Shown here piece by piece: positions 13,825 to 31,511 of a DNA stretch of 34,883 bases (position 1 is its first letter; each line of letters begins with the position of its first letter). Origin of the DNA: Candidatus Daviesbacteria bacterium (lineage in GTDB: Bacteria; Patescibacteriota; Microgenomatia; Daviesbacterales; UBA10151); contig JAUYKM010000018.1 of the NCBI GenBank assembly GCA_030699125.1, forward strand, positions 1 to 34,883, given 5' to 3'. A program made the translations under genes and the position numbers. The notes below the pieces were generated by a model. It was not told the origin of the DNA and searched no databases. It saw only the letters and a list, made by a program, of their open reading frames with translations.

Positions 13825-14593
13825 CTTTTACCTCCTTATTTGGTGTCTCAGTTACTCCAACTTTAACAATATCAGCTTGTTCTGACTTTACACTCTCCAC
13901 TTTCCCCTCTTCACTTTCATCAATCTTTTCTTCTGGTGGAGGAGTATAACCTTTAATCCTGCCCAACTTTGTCACCATCACCAAGCCGCCGGCTATTCCG
14001 GGCACAGCTCCTTTAATTGTTAAGAGATTTTTTTCCTTATCAATACTAACTACTTCCAAACCCGTAGTGGATACTTGTACATTACCCATATGACCGGCCA
14101 TTTTTTTACCTTTATAAACTCTGCCTGGAGTTGTACCGGAACCAATAGCGCCGGGAGCGCGATGCCTGTCTGATTGGCCATGAGTTTTGGGACCGCCATG
14201 AAAGCCCCAACGTCTTACTCCACCCTGGAAACCCTTACCCTTAGATATACCAGTAACCTTCACCTCGTCACCAATAGAAAAAACCTGGTCCAACTTTACT
14301 TGTTGTCCAGGTTTTAGATCTCCCAAATCTTCCTTATCATCTCTAATCTCCCTAAACCATCTAATGGGTTGATCTATTCCTATCTTTTTTCCCAGTCCAA
14401 GTTGCGGTTTCTTAACTGATTTCTTTGTTCCATATCCCAACTGCACTGAGTTATACCCATCTTTTCCTACCTCAGATTTTATTTGGGTTATTACACTTGG
14501 TTTTATCTCCACTACGGTTGCTCCCACACGTCTTCCGCGGGAGTCATAAGTTGATGTCATGCCATTTTTAGTTCCCAGCAATGTGTTTATCAT
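13814..14593 (-). CDS. rplC: ribosomal protein uL3 with C-terminal extension
   Basis: LLGTKNGMTSTYDSRGRRVGATVVE..GFQGGVRRWGFHGGPKTHGQSDRHRAPGAIG. Confidence 0.97.
   Translation of the reverse strand: MINTLLGTKNGMTSTYDSRGRRVGATVVEIKPSVITQIKSEVGKDGYNSVQLGYGTKKSVKKPQLGLGKKIGIDQPIRWFREIRDDKEDLGDLKPGQQVKLDQVFSIGDEVKVTGISKGKGFQGGVRRWGFHGGPKTHGQSDRHRAPGAIGSGTTPGRVYKGKKMAGHMGNVQVSTTGLEVVSIDKEKNLLTIKGAVPGIAGGLVMVTKLGRIKGYTPPPEEKIDESEEGKVESVKSEQADIVKVGVTETPNKEVKDAS
13884..13918. repeat. degenerate heptanucleotide array (5 units) in the rplC C-terminal extension
   Basis: minus strand GAAAGTG AAGAGGG GAAAGTG GAGAGTG TAAAGTC. Confidence 0.6.
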
Positions 14594-14614
14594 AATTTTG
14601 TATTTTTTTGCATT

Positions 14615-14649
14615 AAAAAGAGTGAGGCCTTTTTACAGGACGCTCACTC
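14615..14649 (-). terminator. hairpin + U-tract in the rplC leader (putative attenuator)
   Basis: RNA sense: GAGTGAG(14649-14643) CGT CCT GTAAAA AGG C CTCACTC(14626-14620) followed by TTTTT(14619-14615). Confidence 0.7.
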
Positions 14650-14662
14650 AGTATCTCGCCTA

Positions 14663-14691
14663 GATTCGCCGTATCCAGCGGACGCGCGATC
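14663..14691 (-). promoter_or_regulatory. bulged stem-loop in the rplC 5' leader
   Basis: RNA sense GAT-CGC-(G)-CGT [CCGCTGGAT] ACG-GCG-(A)-ATC; extended by TCAGTA(14697-14692)/TACTGA(14653-14648). Confidence 0.6.
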
Positions 14692-14702
14692 TACTGAAAT
14701 TT

Positions 14703-14722
14703 AGGTTAAAATCTATTAACCT
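14703..14722 (-). promoter_or_regulatory. 7-bp perfect stem AGGTTAA/TTAACCT in the rplC leader
   Basis: AGGTTAATAGATTTTAACCT in RNA sense. Confidence 0.55.
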
Positions 14723-14741
14723 GAACTAATCATGTAAGGGA

Positions 14742-14771
14742 ATTGTAACACAAGCTTGAATTCAAATGCAA
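14742..14771 (-). promoter_or_regulatory. putative rplC/S10-cluster promoter TTGCAT-18-TACAAT
   Basis: -35 at 14771-14766, -10 at 14747-14742; inverted repeat AAGCTTG/CAAGCTT (14752-14758/14769-14775) overlaps it. Confidence 0.6.
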
Positions 14772-14790
14772 GCTTTGGGGAAGAGGTATT

Positions 14791-14985
14791 TTAACCTCTA
14801 ATTTTTGCCATTAATTGAGCTCTATACACAGTTTTACTAGGATCTGGCAAAGCTATATTTTTAGGTAATAAGTTCAACTGTCTATCAACATCTTCAACAC
14901 CAGTTATAGGACTAATCTTTCCAGTCGCAATTTGTCTTTTAATCCTTGCGGATTGATTTTCATTTCCATTACGTTCTTCACTCAT
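14791..14985 (-). CDS. small hypothetical protein, 64 aa (start ATG 14985 preferred to 15036)
   Basis: MSEERNGNENQSARIKRQIATGKISPITGVEDVDRQLNLLPKNIALPDPSKTVYRAQLMAKIRG; own promoter TTGAAA-17-TATAAT ending 6 nt before ATG. Confidence 0.65.
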   Translation of the reverse strand: MSEERNGNENQSARIKRQIATGKISPITGVEDVDRQLNLLPKNIALPDPSKTVYRAQLMAKIRG

Positions 14986-14991
14986 ATAAAA

Positions 14992-15020
14992 ATTATACCA
15001 GATCTTACTTAAAATTTCAA
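14992..15020 (-). promoter_or_regulatory. putative leaderless promoter TTGAAA-17-TATAAT
   Basis: -35 15020-15015, -10 14997-14992, 6 nt to ATG 14985. Confidence 0.7.
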
Positions 15021-15058
15021 CTATTATAGGGTACAACTTTCGAGGTGAAGTATCGAAA

Positions 15059-15367
15059 TTACATTTTTACTTCAATATCAACTCCGGCAGGGATTTCTAA
15101 ATGCATCAGGGAATCTATGGTTTTTTGGGTAGGTTCTATAATATCTACCATTCTTTTATGAGTTCTTATTTCAAAAGCTTCCTGGGAATCTTTATCTGTA
15201 TGTGGGGAACGAAGAACTGTAATTCTCTCAATTTTGGTAGGTAGGGGAATTGGGCCAACAATTTTAGCACCGGTTCGAAGGGCGGTATCCAATAAAATCT
15301 CACAGGTACTATCTAGTACTCTGTGATCATAACTTTTTAGTTTTACGCGGATGCGTCCACTTGGCAT
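15059..15367 (-). CDS. rpsJ: ribosomal protein uS10
   Basis: [42 protein letters not shown]. Confidence 0.97.
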
Positions 15368-15376
15368 ATTTTTTCT

Positions 15377-15432
15377 GGACAGATTTGGTACGTTTCTTGG
15401 ACTTTTACTTAAGGCAATCTGCCAAATCGTCC
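15377..15432 (-). promoter_or_regulatory. 11-bp bulged hairpin in the rpsJ leader
   Basis: RNA sense GGACGATTTGG(15432-15422)..33-nt loop..CCAAATC(T)GTCC(15388-15377). Confidence 0.6.
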
Positions 15433-15443
15433 ATTACGATCCC

Positions 15444-15472
15444 AATCTATTCCCCTCCCTGTCAAAGTGCAA
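15444..15472 (-). promoter_or_regulatory. putative rpsJ promoter TTGCAC-17-TAGATT
   Basis: -35 15472-15467, -10 15449-15444. Confidence 0.45.
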
Positions 15473-16651
15473 TTAAGCAATAATCTTTGTGATTACTCCT
15501 GCTCCAACTGTTTTTCCACCTTCACGAACAGCAAATCTTAAACCATCTTCCATAGCTACAGGAGTAATCAGTTTCCCAGTAATTTTAACTGTATCTCCTG
15601 GCATGGCCATTTCCACACCTTCCGGCAATTGTACTTCACCTGTCACATCTGTGGTTCTGATATAAAATTGTGGTCTGTAACCTTTAAAGAATGGCGTATG
15701 TCTTCCACCCTCTTCTTTACTCAAAATATAAATTTCTGCTTCAAATTCTGCGTGAGGAGTAATTGAGCCGGGTTTAGCCAAAACTTGACCGCGCTCAACA
15801 TCATCTTTTTCAATACCGCGAAGCAAAATCCCGGCATTGTCACCTGCTTGACCTTCATCCAACATCTTATGAAACATCTCAATGCCGGTGACCACAGACT
15901 TGGTGGTTGGCCTAATTCCCACAATCTCTATTTCCTCGTTAACTTTAACTTTCCCTCTTTCAATTCTTCCAGTGACTACCGTACCACGACCTTTGATCGA
16001 GAAAACATCTTCCACAGCCATAAGAAATGGCTTTTCTATGTCTCTAACAGGTGTGGGAATCCACTCATCCACTTTAACCATTAACTCTTCAATGGCTTTG
16101 ACAGCTTCCGGGTCACCTTCCAAAGCTTTCAAAGCAGAACCTCTCACAATAGGAGACTCTGGGTCAAATTCATATTTTTTCAGTAAGTCTCTGATTTCTT
16201 CTTCCACCAAATCTATCAGCTCTGGATCGGAAACTTGATCAATTTTGTTTAAGAAAACTACAATGGCAGGAACTCCCACCTGGCGGGCAAGTAGTAAATG
16301 TTCCCGAGTTTGAGGCATAGGACCATCTGGTGCGGAAACCACCAAGATTGCTCCATCAGTTTGGGCGGCACCGGTGATCATGTTTTTAATATAATCTGCG
16401 TGCCCAGGCATATCGATGTGAGCATAATGCCTTTTCTCTGTTTCATATTCTTGATGAGAAATATTGATGGTGATTCCTCTGGCTTTTTCCTCAGGAGCGT
16501 TATCAATTTGGTCAACTGATCTGGCCTCGGCCAAACCTTTGCCTGCTAAAACTTTGGTAATAGCTGCAGTAAGAGTAGTTTTACCATGGTCAACATGACC
16601 CATGGTGCCAATATTTACGTGTGGTTTTGATCTGTCAAATTTCTCTGCCAT
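15473..16651 (-). CDS. tuf: elongation factor Tu
   Basis: [47 protein letters not shown]. Confidence 0.98.
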
Positions 16652-16667
16652 TTATTAATTTTCCCTT

Positions 16668-16692
16668 AAAAATCCAGCTCCTGTCAAGCTGG
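16668..16692 (-). terminator. CCAGCT/AGCTGG hairpin + ATTTTT between tuf promoter and tuf start
   Basis: RNA sense CCAGCT(16692-16687) TGACAGG AGCTGG(16679-16674) A TTTTT. Confidence 0.65.
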
Positions 16693-16699
16693 CAAATAG

Positions 16700-16728
16700 A
16701 ATATACACAAAATTCATACAAAATGCAA
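16700..16728 (-). promoter_or_regulatory. putative tuf promoter TTGCAT-17-TATATT with TTTTGTG upstream of -10
   Basis: -35 16728-16723, -10 16705-16700. Confidence 0.55.
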
Positions 16729-16736
16729 GCCCCAAA

Positions 16737-18878
16737 TCAGTGCTCTACCCTACCTGTAAAGCCTGAGGATTCTACAATTTTATCTGTAATATTTTTGGGT
16801 ACCGGGTCGTAGTGGTCTGCTTCCATATAATAGGAAGCTCTTCCCTGGGACATAGAACGCAACGAGGTGGCATAACCGTGCATTTCCGCCAAAGGTACTG
16901 ACGCATCAATGACTGTATAATTTCCCCTTTTATTACTTCCCAAAATCTGAGCTCTTTTGGAAGATAAATCTCCAATAATCTCTCCCAAAAACTCCTCCGG
17001 AGTGGTCACTTCCACCTTCATGATTGGCTCAAGTAAAATCATATCCGCCTTTTTAGCCGCCTCAGACAAACCTAATGAGGCAGCAATTTTAAAAGCCACC
17101 TCGGAGGAGTCAACATCATGGTATGATCCATCATAAACAGTCACTTTTATATCAGTCAGTGGGTAACCTGCTAAAATACCGGTATCCTCTTTTTCAATCA
17201 CACCTTTTTCAATAGGCGGAATAAATTCTCTGGGGATGGCACCACCCACCACCTCAGATACAAACTCCCTACCTTGTCCGCGAGGAAGCGGTTCAATCTT
17301 CAGTAAACAGTGGCCATATTGACCGCGTCCTCCGGTCTGCCTAATATATTTACCTTCCCCTAAAGCCTCTTTGGTGATAGTCTCTTTATAGGCCACCTGC
17401 GGCTGGCCCACATTGGCCTCCACTTTAAATTCCCGCTTCATGCGGTCTACCAAAACATCCAATTGCAGCTCTCCCATTCCGGCAATAATGGTTTGACCTG
17501 TTTCCTGATCGCTCTTTACCCTAAAGGTAGGATCCTCCTCAGCCAGTCTTTGTAGGGCAAAGCCCAATTTTTCCTGATCGCTTTTGGTTTTAGGTTCAAT
17601 GGCCAAAGAAATCACCGGATCAGGAAAGGTAATTGATTCCAAAATAATCGGGGCACCTTCATCACATAAAGTATTACCTGTCACAGTATCTTTCAACCCC
17701 ACTGCTGCTACAATTTCCCCTGCATAAGCTTCCTCAATCTCTTCCCTGTCATTGGCATGCATTAGAAGAATTCTACCCACTCGCTCTTTTATCTGTTTGG
17801 TGGAGTTATAAACATAAGAACCGCTCTTTAGAGTTCCTGAATAAACCCTAATATAGGTAAGTTTACCAACGTGTGGATCAACCTGAATTTTAAAAGCCAG
17901 GGCAGACAAAGGTGCTGCCGGATCAGTTTTTCTTTCTGTTGATTCACTTGTGGCAGGATCAATTCCGGAGGTGGAGGCAATATCCTGAGGAGAAGGCAAG
18001 TATTGTACTACCGCATCAAGCATTGGTTGAACTCCTTTGTTGCGAAGAGAAGATCCCCCCAAAACCGGTACGATTTTATTGGCAATGACTGCCCGTCTTA
18101 GTGCCTGCTGCAGTTCATCCACACTGATTTCCTCACCACCCAGATATTTTTCCATCAGAGTATCGTCTGTTCCGGCAATCTCCTCCACCAATTTTTCTCT
18201 GGCTACTTTAACTTCATCTGTCATATTTTGAGGGATTTCCTCTTCGTGAAACTTGGCACCGGTCTCATCCCCTTCCCAAATAAAAGCTTTCCGAGTTAAT
18301 AGATCAATCACCCCTTTAAAATCATTTTCTTTGCCAATGGGCAGATTGTAGGCGATGGCATTGGCCCCCAAACGATCTTTAGCAGATTGGATGGTGGCGG
18401 CAAAATCCGCCCCCACCACATCCATTTTATTGGCAAAAGCAATCAAAGGCACACTATATTTATTGGCCTGTCTCCAGACAGTTTCTGTTTGAGATTGAAC
18501 TCCGGATGATGAATCCAAAACAATCACTGCTCCATCCAAAACTCTTAAAGACCTTTCTACCTCAGCTGTAAAATCAACATGACCTGGAGTATCAATTAAA
18601 TTAATTCTGGTTTCCAATCCATCAAAAAGTCCGCCTGATTTAATAATCCAAAAGGTGGTGATGGCAGCAGAAACAATAGTGATGCCACGCTCCTTTTCCT
18701 GCTCCATCCAGTCTGTGACTGTGGTACCTTCGTCAATATTGCCGATTTTATAAGTTCGTCCGGTATAAAAAAGTACCCGTTCCGTGGTGGTGGTTTTACC
18801 GGCATCAATATGGGCAATAATTCCAATGTTTCTAATCCGGTCTAGCGGAAAATCTCTTTTAGTCTTTTGTATAGCCAT
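16737..18878 (-). CDS. fusA: elongation factor G
   Basis: [46 protein letters not shown]. Confidence 0.98.
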
Positions 18879-19099
18879 TACTTATCCTCCAAACCTGCTA
18901 TTATCTTTTTTACCTGGTCAATCTGTACTCTTAAGGTCTCTGCATCCTCGATGGCCATACTGTAGGCAGCGTTTTCAGATAAATCACCTTCTTGTGCGGC
19001 AGCCCCTTTTTTATGCTGAACCGCCACAAGTTGATCCTCCATCTGCTTGAGGTTTTCTTTCCACATTTTTAGTTTTTCTTGCTTCAATTTTCTATCCAT
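18878..19099 (-). CDS. stand-alone GreA/GreB N-terminal-like coiled-coil protein, 73 aa (ATG 19099 preferred to TTG 19138)
   Basis: [41 protein letters not shown] matches the GreA NTD signature (GDLKENAEYHAARE..); no FKBP-like C-terminal domain; TAATG overlap with fusA. Confidence 0.75.
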
Positions 19100-19105
19100 A
19101 GATTC

Positions 19106-19134
19106 AAAAAACCTCCCTCTTGTTTTTCGGGAGG
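19106..19134 (-). terminator. CCTCCC/GGGAGG hairpin + TTTTTT just upstream of the GreA-like ORF
   Basis: RNA sense CCTCCC(19134-19129) GAAAAACAAGA GGGAGG(19117-19112) TTTTTT(19111-19106). Confidence 0.7.
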
Positions 19135-19143
19135 CCAATGTTA

Positions 19144-19172
19144 ATTTTAAGATTTTTGATCCTAAAAGTCAA
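19144..19172 (-). promoter_or_regulatory. putative promoter of GreA-like/fusA unit TTGACT-17-TAAAAT
   Basis: -35 19172-19167, -10 19149-19144. Confidence 0.6.
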
Positions 19173-19396
19173 ATGCTACGCTGAGGAGGAAAAGGATCAG
19201 AATCTGTTGAAGTTTGTTGAGGTTTAGCAAGCACACTTAGTGTATCTTTAGACAAACGGGTCACTATCATTTCTAGTTTCTCCATCGGAATAGGAACTCC
19301 CCCGCTACCTGGGACACCAGTAAGGATTCTCAAAGTTTTTAAAGGTATAATCATCCTGGAATTTCCCAAATTTTTCTCACTTTCAACTCCTGCCAT
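19169..19396 (-). CDS. small hypothetical protein, 75 aa
   Basis: ORF on operon strand between phosphatase and GreA-like gene; no recognised family. Confidence 0.45.
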   Translation of the reverse strand: MAGVESEKNLGNSRMIIPLKTLRILTGVPGSGGVPIPMEKLEMIVTRLSKDTLSVLAKPQQTSTDSDPFPPQRSI

Positions 19397-19431
19397 ATTT
19401 TATTAAATATTATGAATTCTTCCCCCAAAAG

Positions 19432-19962
19432 TCAAATCGTATAGCTCCAACCTGGTTGCCATTTGAAGGGGGTGGAGACCAAGGTTTTTAAATCTATTCC
19501 ATTTATCCAATGTTCTAAACCATATTGAGTGGCTCTGTGTCCAATAATTAGGACATTTATATCACGATCGTGATATTTTTGTCTCAGATCATCTAAGAAT
19601 TCTTTCATTCTTTTAGATGTCTGCTCATAACTTTCTCCATTAGGAAAAGGTTTACTGATATGATCCAATTTTTGTGGCTCTACTTCATCTGATGGATTTC
19701 TGGTTAAATCTCCATAATCACACTCTCTAAGCCTATTATCTTTAACAATTGGAAATTTATTTCCAAAAGCAATTTCTGCGGTTCGATAGGATCTCCTAAA
19801 ATCGGAACAAAAAATGGCATCAAATTCTTGATCTTTGTATCTTGCTCCAAGCTCCTTTGCTTGTTTAATACCAAGAGGAGATAGTTCTACATCAAAATGG
19901 CCGGAAGACAAATGAGCTTCATTATCAAATGTTGTCCCATGAACTTCAAAAACTATTGTCAC
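19432..19962 (-). CDS. histidine phosphatase superfamily (phosphoglycerate mutase-like) protein
   Basis: EVHGTTFDNEAHLSSGHFDVELSPLGIKQAKELG..RLRECDYGDL..IIGHRATQ; GTG start overlaps toxin stop (TAGTG). Confidence 0.8.
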   Translation of the reverse strand: MTIVFEVHGTTFDNEAHLSSGHFDVELSPLGIKQAKELGARYKDQEFDAIFCSDFRRSYRTAEIAFGNKFPIVKDNRLRECDYGDLTRNPSDEVEPQKLDHISKPFPNGESYEQTSKRMKEFLDDLRQKYHDRDINVLIIGHRATQYGLEHWINGIDLKTLVSTPFKWQPGWSYTI

Positions 19963-20213
19963 TATTCTCTGTATACCTCCCTTCTATGCCTAATCCTAAC
20001 AATGATAATCACCCTAGATTTCTTATCAACCGTATATGTGACTCTATAATCTCCTATTCGGATACGATATCCTTTTCCACCTCCCAATTTTTGACTTCCT
20101 TGCCCATAAGGATTGTTCTGTAATAGAGAAATTTTTTGAAAGATCCGTTGTCCTAATTGTCTATCTAATTTAAGAAGTTCTTTTTCAGCTGAAGTTTTAT
20201 AGATTATTTCCAT
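19962..20213 (-). CDS. RelE/ParE-family toxin
   Basis: IIYKTSAEKELLKLDRQLGQRIFQKISLLQNNPYGQGSQKLGGGKGYRIRIGDYRVTYTVDKKSRVIIIVRIRHRREVY. Confidence 0.88.
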   Translation of the reverse strand: MEIIYKTSAEKELLKLDRQLGQRIFQKISLLQNNPYGQGSQKLGGGKGYRIRIGDYRVTYTVDKKSRVIIIVRIRHRREVYRE

Positions 20214-20461
20214 TAAAGCCCAAGCTTTTTGGCAACCTGTTTAGAAGAAACTGTGGATTCTTCTTTACGTTCCTCAATAACTTTTAGGTCTTCTAGATCT
20301 TCTAGTGATTTTTCAAGTATTTCGTAATAATTAGGGTCTACTAAAACTGCAGAAGGTTCAGAACGTTGTATTATGAGTACTGATTTACCTGTAATCTTCA
20401 CTCTCTTAACCACATCAGCAGTATTTTGTTTTAAATCAGTAATAGAAACAGTATTAATCAT
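20213..20461 (-). CDS. Phd/YefM-family antitoxin
   Basis: MINTVSITDLKQNTADVVKRVKITGKSVLIIQRSEPSAVLVDPNYYEILEK; 1-nt overlap with toxin. Confidence 0.85.
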   Translation of the reverse strand: MINTVSITDLKQNTADVVKRVKITGKSVLIIQRSEPSAVLVDPNYYEILEKSLEDLEDLKVIEERKEESTVSSKQVAKKLGL

Positions 20462-20469
20462 ATAAATAC

Positions 20470-20505
20470 ATTATAACATACTCTTAACAATACTTTCAAG
20501 AGTAT
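20470..20505 (-). promoter_or_regulatory. TA promoter TTGAAA-18-TATAAT with perfect 8-bp inverted-repeat operator
   Basis: -10 20475-20470; -35 20499-20494; IR atactctt(20478-20485)/aagagtat(20498-20505). Confidence 0.7.
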
Positions 20506-20592
20506 CTAAAAGACTCTCATGTAGGAGCCATTATATGGACTTTTAATTGTTAATTAAACCGTTCTGAATGTATCGTGGCCTAGATAATGAAA

Positions 20593-21174
20593 TTATTTAC
20601 CAAGCAGATGATCAATTTGATCTGATGCATCTTCAGGTCCATCAAAGAGTGTATGAGTTATATCTTTACCTCCAGTAATTTTACCATGATCATCTACATC
20701 TACTTGAATCAAACTTGTGATACTTGGTAGATATACGTTTCTAATACGTCTAATTAGTGGGTTATCTCCCCCAAACATATACATTGTAATCCATATTGCA
20801 TCTGTGGGTGGTTTTAACATATTACAAAGTTCATCTTGTTCCTGAGCAAGGTAAAAACCATTTGTAACGGATCTAAAAGTATCAAAAAAAGCTGTAAATC
20901 TTTTTTCTTCTTCCTTCTTTTCATATTTAGGTACTGAATATCCAAAAAAATCCGCTACTTGTTTTGCTACAGCTGCAACTCTTAATACCTTATCTAAATC
21001 TTTTTTCCCTAATTGACTTGGATTTAAAAATAAATCGAGATCCTCTGGGGTCGAAGTTACAATTGTTTCTAGTGCAGATTTAACCAATGCTAACTTTTTC
21101 CCATCGTTGAAGAACTTAGACTCTCCATCTATAGGTAACCGTTCAAACCAGTAACTAAACCTGTTTTCTACCAT
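20593..21174 (-). CDS. hypothetical protein, 193 aa
   Basis: Long ORF whose ATG overlaps the 3' end of rpsG; no recognised domain. Confidence 0.7.
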   Translation of the reverse strand: MVENRFSYWFERLPIDGESKFFNDGKKLALVKSALETIVTSTPEDLDLFLNPSQLGKKDLDKVLRVAAVAKQVADFFGYSVPKYEKKEEEKRFTAFFDTFRSVTNGFYLAQEQDELCNMLKPPTDAIWITMYMFGGDNPLIRRIRNVYLPSITSLIQVDVDDHGKITGGKDITHTLFDGPEDASDQIDHLLGK

Positions 21175-21644
21175 CTAAAGTGGGCGAAGGCACGGTTGGC
21201 ATTGGCTACTTTCTGCATATCTTCTTTTTTCTTAACAGCTGATCCGGTATTATTTGAAGCATCAATCAGTTCCTGCGCCAGTTTCTGATCAAAACTGTGG
21301 AACTGATTATTTGATTTCCCCTTGGCTCCACCAATAATCCACCTTAGGGCCAAAGCTTCTTTTCTATCTCCTCTAACCTCTATCGGTACCTGATATGAGG
21401 CACCACCTACCCGGCGGGGTTTTACCTCCATTTTAGGAGAAACATTAGCCATTGCTCTTTCAAAAATAACCAAAGGATCACCTTTGGATTCTGTTTTGAC
21501 GCTATCCAAAGCTTTATAAACCAAGCTTTGAGCAATTGATTTTTTCCCATCCTTCATGATTTTATTGATCAATTTATTAACCAATCTGGAATGATAGATG
21601 GGATCCCCTGTAATAATTCTTTTGGTTACTTTTTTACTCCTCAT
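21168..21644 (-). CDS. rpsG: ribosomal protein uS7 (ORF track start 21761 lies inside rpsL)
   Basis: MRSKKVTKRIITGDPIYHSRLVNKLINKIMKDGKKSIAQ..ANANRAFAHFRW; ATG at 21644 is 10 nt after rpsL stop. Confidence 0.96.
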   Translation of the reverse strand: MRSKKVTKRIITGDPIYHSRLVNKLINKIMKDGKKSIAQSLVYKALDSVKTESKGDPLVIFERAMANVSPKMEVKPRRVGGASYQVPIEVRGDRKEALALRWIIGGAKGKSNNQFHSFDQKLAQELIDASNNTGSAVKKKEDMQKVANANRAFAHFRW

Positions 21645-21654
21645 TTTTATCCTT

Positions 21655-22149
21655 TTAAGCTGCTGGCGCCAAGTCAGACTTGGCTGGCGCTGGTGGTGTT
21701 TCAACTGCGCTCTGTGTAGTTGGGCGAGTAGGAGCAGGGCCTCCTCCAGCCTTAGTGCCATACCTTGATCTTCCTTTTTTCCTGCCTACTACTCCCGCCA
21801 AATCATATTTACCTCTAATTAAATGATACTTAACACCTGGTAAATCTTTTACTCTGCCGCCTCTTACTAAAACTATTCCGTGTTCTGCCAAAGAATGTCC
21901 TTCTCCCTGAATATAGGCTGTCACCTCAGTTCTATTAGACAATCTGACTCTCGCCACTTTGCGAAGAGCAGAATTAGGCTTTTTGGGAGTCATTGTTTTG
22001 ACCAAAGTAACCACTCCCCGCTTTTGCGGATTAAAAAGAGTCTTATATCTTCTATCCTTGGCATTAAAGCTTCGCCTTAAAGCTGTGGCTTTAATTTTTT
22101 TGACCACCTTTTTTCTTCCTTTTCTAATTAATTGACTAACTGTAGGCAT
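21655..22149 (-). CDS. rpsL: ribosomal protein uS12 with Pro/Ala-rich C-terminal tail
   Basis: [62 protein letters not shown]. Confidence 0.97.
21668..21684. repeat. perfect palindrome GCCAAGTC-A-GACTTGGC inside the rpsL tail
   Basis: Read directly. Confidence 0.85.
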
Positions 22150-22152
22150 AAT

Positions 22153-25100
22153 TTAACTCTCTATCTTCACTCTCTCTGGATCCGTTGGGATCAAACGACC
22201 AATTATAACATTTTCTTTTAAGCCTAACAATTTATCAACTTTGCCGGAAATAGCCGCATCTGCCAAAATGGTGGTAGTTTCCTGAAATGAAGCAGCAGAA
22301 AGCGGTGAATCTGTTAAAAGAGATGCTCTGGTAATACCCAAAATGACCATCTCGGCTGTGGCTGGCTCACCACCTGATGCTAAAACTCTTAAGTTCTCTT
22401 CCTCAAATTTAATTTGATCAATTACCTCTCCAGGTAAAAGATTGGTATCTCCCTGTGTTTCTACTCTCACCTTATCTGACATTTTTCTAACAATCACTTC
22501 AAAATGTTTCTCATTAATAGGTACACCCTGAGATTCATAAACAAACCTCACCTCATCTACTATATATCTTTGGGCTGCTTTAATACCCTGGATCCTCAAA
22601 ATTTCTTTAACATCAGAATGCCCGGAAGCAAGAATTGTCCCTGCTCCAATCAACTGCCCTTCTTCTACTAAGATTTGCGAGGCTGCAGGAATGATATATT
22701 CTCTTTCTTCATGTGGTTTTTGGGTAGTTTTCACGATCACTTTAATTCCCATTTCTCCTTCTTCTATACTAACCTTTCCGGCAATTTCCGACATGGGAGC
22801 TACAATCTTAGGGGTGCGAGCCTCAAATAATTCTTCCACTCTGGGTAGACCTTGGGTAATATCCAATCCAACTATTCCTCCGGTATGAAAAGTTCTCATA
22901 GTAAGCTGTGTACCTGGTTCACCAATAGCTTGAGCAGCCACCACCCCCACCGGTGTTCCTTGTTTTACCTTTTGACGGGTGGTCAAATCATATCCATAAC
23001 AACTACTGCATAAGCCAAAACGAGCCTCACAAGTTAAGGGTGATCTCACCTTCACAGAAGTTACTCCTGCTTTCAAAATAACTTCAATGATGTCTTCTAT
23101 TAAGAATTCTCCTTGTTTACTGATTATTTTTCTGGTTTTAGGATCAGTAATATTTTCCAAAACTAGTCGCCCCAGCATTTTTTCCCGCGCTGTAGTAAAA
23201 CTGATACCGGCTATATCAAATTCCAAACCCTCTTTTGTATTACAATCGTCCATCCTGATAAGCACATCGTGGGCCACATCCACCAGTCTTCTGGTCAAAT
23301 ATCCTGCATCGGCAGTTTTCAGAGCTTTATCAGCCACCCCTTTTCTGGCACCCCGGGCAGAGGTAAAATATTCAAAAACAGATAAGCCTTGGCGGTAGTT
23401 TGACTTAGTAGGCAACTCCACGATTTTTCCGGTTGGATCTGTTGATAAACCTCTCATGGCAGAAAGCTGTTTAGCTTGATCCCTAGACCCTCTAGCACCT
23501 GCTTCAACCATCATTCTGATAGGGTTAGTAACCTCCAGATACTCCCAGGTGGCATTAGCTAAATCTTCTGTAGTTTTAATCCAGACCATTTGGGAAAGTT
23601 GTACTTTTTCTTGTGGAGTAATCAATCCTTTGGCTAAATTAGCCTCAATTTTTTCCACTTCTTTTTCTGCTTCGGCCAAATATTCATCCTTATTGGGCAA
23701 AATCTTGGCATCAAAAAGAGAAATAGAATTACTTGCCATGGTAGCACCCCAAAAACCTACTGATTTAATATTATCAATAAGATCAGTTACCTCTTCTTTA
23801 GTCTGGGAAGAAGTAGCGTTAAGCAAAATATCCCTGATAGTTATACCTTTGATAGGGCTATTAATAAATCTCATCTGAGGTGGTAAAACCTGATTGAAGA
23901 TGATTCTACCTACAGAAGTTTCAATATTTTCACCATTAAACCTTAGTCCAATTTTTTGCTTTAATTTAATCTTACCTAATTGATAGGACAAAATTGCTTC
24001 CTCGTAAGAAGTGAAAAATTTCACCTCTTTACTCTCTTCATCACTGATAACAGTTAGATAATAACACCCCAAAGCCATTTCCCTATTAGGCACAGTGATT
24101 GGCTGGGCATTGGCCGGACCAAAAATATTTTCCCGGGCCATCATCAGTCTGATTGCTTCTTCCTGTGCTTTGGCAGATAAAGGAACATGAACAGCCATCT
24201 GATCCCCATCAAAGTCAGCATTAAATCCTGCGCAAATACAGGGATGAATCTGAATGGCATTTCCGTCTACCAAAACCGGGAAGAAAGCCTGAATACCTAA
24301 TCTGTGCAAAGTTGGTGCCCTATTAATCAATATGGGGTGTCCGGTAACTATTTCCTCCAAGATATCCCACACTTCATTGGGACGAGTTTCCAAGACATTT
24401 TTAGCCCCCTTAACATTGGCAGCCAAACCTCTGGCAATCACCTCTCGCAATACGAAAGGCTTAAACATCTCCAAAGCCATTTCTTTTGGTAAGCCCACTT
24501 GATCCAGCTTTAATTTAGGACCTACCACAATCACTGATCTACCTGAGTAATCAACTCTTTTTCCTAAAAGATTTTGTCGGAAACGTCCCTGTTTTCCTCT
24601 TAACATATCCGAGAGGGATCGCAACATATGTGAGGCTGGACCACCACGCCTTGAGGTACGGCCTGATGAATCGATCAAAGCATCAACCGCCTCCTGCAGC
24701 ATCCTTTTTTCATTGCGTAAAATTATTTCCGGTGCACCCAGATGAATCAGTCTGTTAAGTCTGTTGTTTCTATTGATCACTCGTCTGTATAAATCATTCA
24801 AATCAGATGTGGCAAATCTGCCTCCAGGAAGTTGCACCATGGGGCGAAGATCTGGAGGAAGGACCGGCAAAATCCTTACCACCATCCAAGAAGGCATAAT
24901 ATCAGCTGATCTCATTCCCTCTACCACCCTTAATCTTTTGGTGGCTTTAATATGTTTTTGTCCAGTTGTTTTTCTGACCTCTTCCCGCAGTAAGGCAGCC
25001 AATTTATCTAAATCTATTTTTTCCAAGACTTCCAAAAGTGCATCTGCCCCCATCCCCACTTTAATAAAATCAGCCACAGAGTATTCCTCAAGCTTAGAAT

Positions 25101-31106: not shown

Positions 31107-31511
31107 TTAGTTAAATTCTATTTCAATAATTTTCTTTTTAAGATTGAAGTTAATTTTACATAAATCGAAAAAACCATATTGTCCGAGAATTCCATTGTCT
31201 ATAGGTGCAAAAACCACCTTAGTTTTAATTTTTTCAGATCCCATTTCTAGTATTACATCTGCTTTTATCCCATCTATAAAATTACCTCCCACTCCAACAA
31301 AGGTAAGCTCGTCTGACTTCTTTAGGTTTATTCTTAATTTTTTAGCAATTTCAAATGGAAATATATTAAAATCTGCACCGGAATCTATTAAAGCTTCAAA
31401 ACGCAACGATCTGTCGTTATATTTGATGCTGAATGGAATTATCGGCCTTAAAATGAAATCCTTTGAATTAAAAGGATTCTGGAGATTAATTTTTCGGTAT
31501 GGAAATTTCAC
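31107..31511 (-). CDS. retropepsin-like aspartic protease
   Basis: FEALIDSGADFNIFPFEIAKKL (DSGA motif), GILGQYGFFD; GTG start. Confidence 0.75.
   Translation of the reverse strand: MKFPYRKINLQNPFNSKDFILRPIIPFSIKYNDRSLRFEALIDSGADFNIFPFEIAKKLRINLKKSDELTFVGVGGNFIDGIKADVILEMGSEKIKTKVVFAPIDNGILGQYGFFDLCKINFNLKKKIIEIEFN

Follow-up and report, generated by a model that had tools for sequence, protein, structure and literature searches.

The window analysed here, a stretch of 34,883 nucleotides from Candidatus Daviesbacteria, raises the question of what a stand-alone N-terminal domain of GreA/GreB, encoded directly ahead of the EF-G gene fusA, does for the cell. The gene in question (short gre; Table 1) encodes 73 amino acids followed by a stop codon. 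Its product matched the Pfam family GreA_GreB_N (PF03449) with 32.3 bits (E 1.1e-7), above the curated cut-off of 24.5, and the match to the NCBIfam greA model (TIGR01462), 35.6 bits and hence below the cut-off of 139 bits, covered only model positions 3-66 of 151, the N-domain. The C-terminal FKBP-like GreA_GreB domain (PF01272) is absent, the reading frame stopping before it, as the initial annotation had claimed. A GreA N-domain match was obtained for 28 of 28 short gre orthologues, and a profile of these orthologues detected E. coli GreA (1grj, E 7.7e-5) and a GreA/Gfh1 chimera in a PDB set. In the gapless profile alignment, D39 of short Gre falls on D41 of E. coli GreA and E42 on E44, and columns 26-64 lie on residues 28-66 without a gap, corresponding to a GreA-like arm length. 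A phmmer search of the PDB with the single short gre sequence had returned coiled coils of huntingtin-interacting protein only and was set aside, the orthologue profile later giving GreA. Because both sequence and position are conserved across the family, short gre is not a chance ORF and, as judged from these matches, its product is the RNA-polymerase-probing finger of GreA alone, without the docking domain.

Table 1. Features of the short gre-fusA region, in coordinates of the window
Feature	Position	Strand	Evidence or remark
sigma70-like promoter, TTGACT-17-TAAAAT	19144..19172	minus	17 relatives have the same promoter at the aligned position
terminator-like hairpin, GGCCTCCC-loop-GGGAGG, then TTTTTT	19106..19137	minus	6-7 nt between its end and the short gre start codon
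short gre CDS (hairpin, 73 aa; predicted helices 3-35 and 44-72)	18878..19099	minus	family matches, model, profile
tip codons G38-D39-L40-S41-E42-N43	18971..18988	minus	D39/E42 aligned with E. coli GreA D41/E44
GGAGG, Shine-Dalgarno of fusA in the last codons of short gre	18886..18890	minus	sequence
TAATG, short gre stop overlapping the fusA start	18876..18880	minus	sequence
fusA (EF-G), directly downstream of short gre	16737..18878	minus	ORF and family evidence
tuf (EF-Tu)	15473..16651	minus	ORF and family evidence

The AlphaFold monomer model of short Gre is a two-helix hairpin with the helices given in Table 1 (mean pLDDT 89.6), and the top rows of a Foldseek search include GreA (1.2-1.3 Å rmsd over 60-62 columns). 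No Foldseek match to this model fell under E 0.001, and hantavirus N and similar two-helix hairpins score like GreA; such hairpins are generic, so the identity argument rests on sequence and not on fold. The model of the orthologue from a related family of the same class (f6; the Daviesbacteria family is f1) was weaker (mean pLDDT 75.9) and was left out of the argument. The GreA N-terminal domain, a structural match to which the initial annotation had made decisive for its reading, was returned by both the profile search and the fold search.

Regarding its distribution, short gre was detected by a class-wide profile search and targeted checks in 43 f1 genomes, that is, in every f1 genome with a detectable fusA, and the two f1 genomes without it (G032 and G062) are assemblies in which no fusA was detectable; genome-wide statements made here rest on searches of genomes. 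At the loci read, from 40 f1 genomes, short gre shares the strand of fusA and immediately precedes it in every case in which the contig extends into fusA. A tandem second copy is present in G018, G028 and G029; the second copy of G033 is on a short contig that does not contain fusA. The survey of genomes for the gene upstream of fusA that had been proposed with the initial annotation extends to f6, in which an orthologue was present between rpsG and fusA in 14 of 14 loci read. For about 28 other families of the class, represented by 30 genomes, no short gre was detected in the sequence preceding fusA, of which up to 1.5 kb was covered. In the fusA tree, f1, f6 and f9 are grouped (support 100/95), and the single f9 genome showed no trace of short gre; since f9 groups with f1 and f6 yet lacks the gene, one origin followed by loss and two origins are both possible. 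The tree of the short domain, with few columns and long branches, separates full-length and short forms (100/100), with the exception of one full-length row, 21% of its columns filled, that falls among the short forms, and, with the same few columns and long branches, places the tandem "type b" copies with f6 (87/70). The best greA-model score among short copies (47 bits) belongs to a type b copy, which fits descent from GreA.

Short gre is under purifying selection, the median pairwise dN/dS being 0.17 in f1 (56 pairs with dS < 2) and 0.23 in f6 (nine pairs). Mean column identity in the f1 alignment is only 55%, and the residues W13, G32, G38, D39, E42, N43 and E71 are invariant. That a full greA is decaying here as a pseudogene, as truncation at the domain boundary might suggest, is already contradicted by the data, since dN/dS is about 0.17, the gene is found in every f1 genome with fusA and no remnant of a C-domain precedes fusA, which short gre overlaps by one base in the window; the chance of this explanation is negligible. 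Neither a frameshifted greA remnant nor a lack of conservation in relatives, outcomes that would have spoken against the initial reading, was encountered.

The stop codon of short gre (TAA, 18880-18878) shares one base with the ATG of fusA (18878-18876), and the TAATG overlap and internal GGAGG described previously were confirmed at their coordinates. The translational coupling to fusA proposed on this basis is frequent, with stop-to-start distances between -8 and +12 nt at 29 of the 38 Daviesbacteria loci, but not universal, the remaining nine having distances of 42-128 nt; the range for f6 is 6-431 nt. While the overlap, the internal Shine-Dalgarno sequence and the short distances in most f1 loci would suit an ORF that mainly couples or tunes translation of fusA and has no role as a protein, this is very unlikely given selection at the amino-acid level, an invariant tip and conservation also where fusA starts 42-431 nt away.

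Gene order suggests a link between short Gre and translation. The hairpin might bind EF-G or the ribosome, contact with RNA polymerase being gone, and adjacency to fusA is strict in two families, even with insertions on the rpsG side; however, adjacency is gene order only and shared expression would account for it equally well, what is conserved is the tip that acts at the polymerase active site, and the match to the ribosome-associated YibL family, weak and limited to 1 of 28 orthologues, was discarded. A translation-side partner is accordingly regarded as improbable.

Further genes were observed in the same neighbourhood. A RelB/RelE-like toxin-antitoxin pair, assigned by recognition (19962-20461, minus strand), is inserted between rpsG and fusA, and similar pairs lie close to fusA in some relatives (L040, L061). 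Three ORFs of the ribosomal protein/str region (20593-21174, 19169-19396 and 14791-15036, all minus strand) have no family match over the cut-off. Elsewhere in the window, positions 31107-31511 (minus strand), adjoining a DUF5678 gene, gave a weak match to retroviral-type aspartyl protease families (E 1.4e-4, just under the cut-off).

Regarding the tip, 39 of the 40 f1 genomes read have an intact GD(L/I/W)xEN motif, so that the retention of both acidic residues, claimed from the window sequence, holds for Daviesbacteria. The exception is G007, in which the fusA-proximal short gre (L172:4014-4232, minus strand) has a degenerate tip, TNLGDDSAL against GDLSENAAY; this genome otherwise has only a diverged GreA-like protein. 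In f6, by contrast, all 14 loci lack the tip aspartate and two of them also the EN pair, the tips reading (S)GxAWxENAAW or SAAPGEDAAW/SSSPGESAAW; conservation is strong in the flanking helix, AAWELADEE.SVLRAM. A repurposed finger is most likely for the f6 orthologue, to judge from these sequences. Repurposing may also apply to the whole group, the protein being a non-cleaving Gre finger that acts as a channel competitor or inhibitor (similar to Gfh1, DksA or TraR) or on another partner via its conserved base, with cleavage an ancestral leftover in f1 and lost in f6. We consider this possible, though on the less likely side: the altered f6 tips next to a conserved helix, the loss of the docking domain and the invariance of W13 and E71 argue for it, whereas the presence of D39/E42 in 39 of 40 f1 genomes, despite the low mean column identity, is most easily explained by catalysis. 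Retention of the tip acids is not decisive, because the non-cleaving factors Gfh1 and Rv3788 keep them too (PMC4598747). W13 and E71 lie near the base of the hairpin, far from the tip, and point to some other contact.

The presence of a full GreA elsewhere, which the initial annotation had left to be checked, was established for the genome of the window (1.13 Mb, estimated 100% complete), in which a separate full-length greA on contig C8 is the sole PF01272 match. Most f1 genomes keep a full-length GreA besides short gre, and 12 f1 genomes, 10 of which are at least 90% complete, yielded no open frame combining the canonical N- and C-domains of GreA. Among those ten, G007 and G029 retain a diverged two-domain protein and G018, G021 and G027 retain pieces of the GreA C-domain; in G002, G005, G010, G014 and G031 the short protein alone represents the Gre N-domain, and no GreA C-domain was found. 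Absence of full GreA is provisional because the assemblies are drafts. Short open frames with a GreA C-domain match and without the N-domain were located at G017:C3:106924, G018:C2:46 and G027:C17:10927. That short Gre is one half of a split GreA, a second protein supplying the C-domain in trans, would fit short C-domain frames in a few f1 genomes such as these; it is nevertheless highly improbable, as such fragments occur only sporadically and the C-domain is lacking altogether from five well-assembled genomes that do encode the short protein.

Regarding expression, short gre is preceded by a sigma70-like promoter and a terminator-like hairpin, which begins at about the predicted transcription start. 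The promoter-hairpin pair was detected at short gre in 21 of 32 f1 loci under a strict rule, and in three more within about 170 nt upstream; elsewhere, one clear case was found in 593 kb of strand. Stems vary while pairing is kept (e.g., CCCCGC/GCGGGG in L176), and the exact CCTCCC/GGGAGG-T5 pattern has three occurrences in the genome, one of them at the short gre leader. RNAalifold recovered only four pairs from the leader alignment because loop lengths differ, and hairpins were evaluated per locus instead; Rfam gave no match in 14500-22500. Promoter and terminator-like leader together suggest autoregulation of the operon, which would also set EF-G levels. A specific tie between the leader hairpin and short gre was, however, weakened by the other families, in which a hairpin with a T-run precedes fusA in 14 of 30 genomes without short gre (L184-L213; 1.9% in random windows), and by f6, in which such a hairpin was found upstream in none of 12. 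Since the hairpins are common in other families and lacking in f6, the leader may belong to fusA, autoregulation by short Gre being hypothetical, and the hairpin, widespread ahead of fusA in the class, is a possible fusA leader attenuator. Similarly, terminator-like hairpins with T-runs, resembling GraL, were observed just before full-length greA in other families (L009, L012, L015, L017, L022); among the Daviesbacteria full-length greA genes checked, only one is preceded by such a hairpin. It is rather unlikely that short Gre is a dedicated regulator of the EF-G operon, acting on polymerase paused at the promoter-proximal terminator and tying EF-G supply to backtracking, with f6 having become non-catalytic after losing the tip aspartate and the leader hairpin; if true, this would be a direct link between transcription and translation.

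The explanation preferred here is that greA was duplicated in the last ancestor shared by Daviesbacteria and f6, or close to it, and that one copy lost the C-terminal domain docking on RNA polymerase. The product, a predicted two-helix hairpin, would have kept its access to the secondary channel of RNA polymerase; in Daviesbacteria it would bring D39 and E42 to the active site and stimulate cleavage of backtracked RNA. High dosage from the fusA operon would compensate for the missing docking domain, and the leader may serve autoregulation of the operon, hence of EF-G, as GraL does for greA in E. coli. That short Gre is a secondary-channel factor, cleavage-competent in f1, is given about an even chance. 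Against it, the C-domain has been reported as the main polymerase-binding part of GreA and the overexpressed N-domain of E. coli GreA as not lethal, unlike the whole protein (PMC7527559); the tips of f6 and G007 are altered, conserved W13 and E71 lie away from the tip, and full-length GreA is retained alongside in most f1 genomes. High dosage could answer the docking gap, as could a different partner or a contact newly made by the conserved base.

GreA is usually described as a two-domain protein in which the C-domain mediates binding and the coiled coil cleavage. A natural form consisting of the coiled coil only, in some genomes apparently without full GreA, tests whether the finger alone serves a cell, and its fixed spot ahead of EF-G, behind a terminator-like leader, provides a concrete system for the wiring of backtracking control with translation capacity in reduced genomes. 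The contrast between kept f1 tips and lost f6 tips is a natural experiment on roles of the finger beyond cleavage. In a literature search that mostly lay outside subscription literature, no paper was found on Daviesbacteria and GreA together, or on truncated or NTD-only GreA there; an earlier description of a natural stand-alone GreA finger has so far not been found, such a finger having been known as a laboratory construct only.

Short hairpins of the GGDGWHDNASW type elsewhere in the phylum were considered and rejected as a different group, being not beside fusA and fused to CYTH domains in relatives. CYTH-domain proteins with a C-terminal Gre-like hairpin and the tip GGDGWHDN were observed at L221:838-1701 (+), L222:1492-2340 (-) and L223:1480-2307 (-), and stand-alone hairpins of this type in L180 and L181.

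Compared with known systems, short gre shares with GreA the N-terminal antiparallel coiled coil, the GDLxENAxY tip and the arm length but, unlike GreA, lacks the C-terminal FKBP-like domain and is encoded with fusA. The GreA N-terminal domain carries antipause activity, and when overexpressed that of E. coli is without the lethal effect of whole GreA (PMC7527559). The artificial E. coli GreA N-terminal domain has its stop after codon 75 (PMC7527559, citing Koulich et al. 1998). This construct has the same domain boundary and almost the same length as short gre, the former being a product of the laboratory whereas the latter is a natural, conserved gene. TraR is similarly small to short Gre. 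Together with Gfh1, Rv3788, Rnk and DksA it belongs to the coiled-coil factors of the secondary channel, several of which work without stimulating cleavage (PMC4598747); these have a globular binding part, while short Gre has none. Regarding the leader, E. coli GreA represses its own gene via a leader terminator (GraL), for which D41 is required (PMC6829880), and leader terminators have been predicted for greA/rnk and, in streptococci, for fusA (PMC2965389). All of these resemble the short gre leader in having a terminator-like hairpin before the gene. What sets the short gre leader apart is that its hairpin, a terminator by prediction only, begins close to the predicted transcription start and stands at the head of an operon of short gre and fusA.
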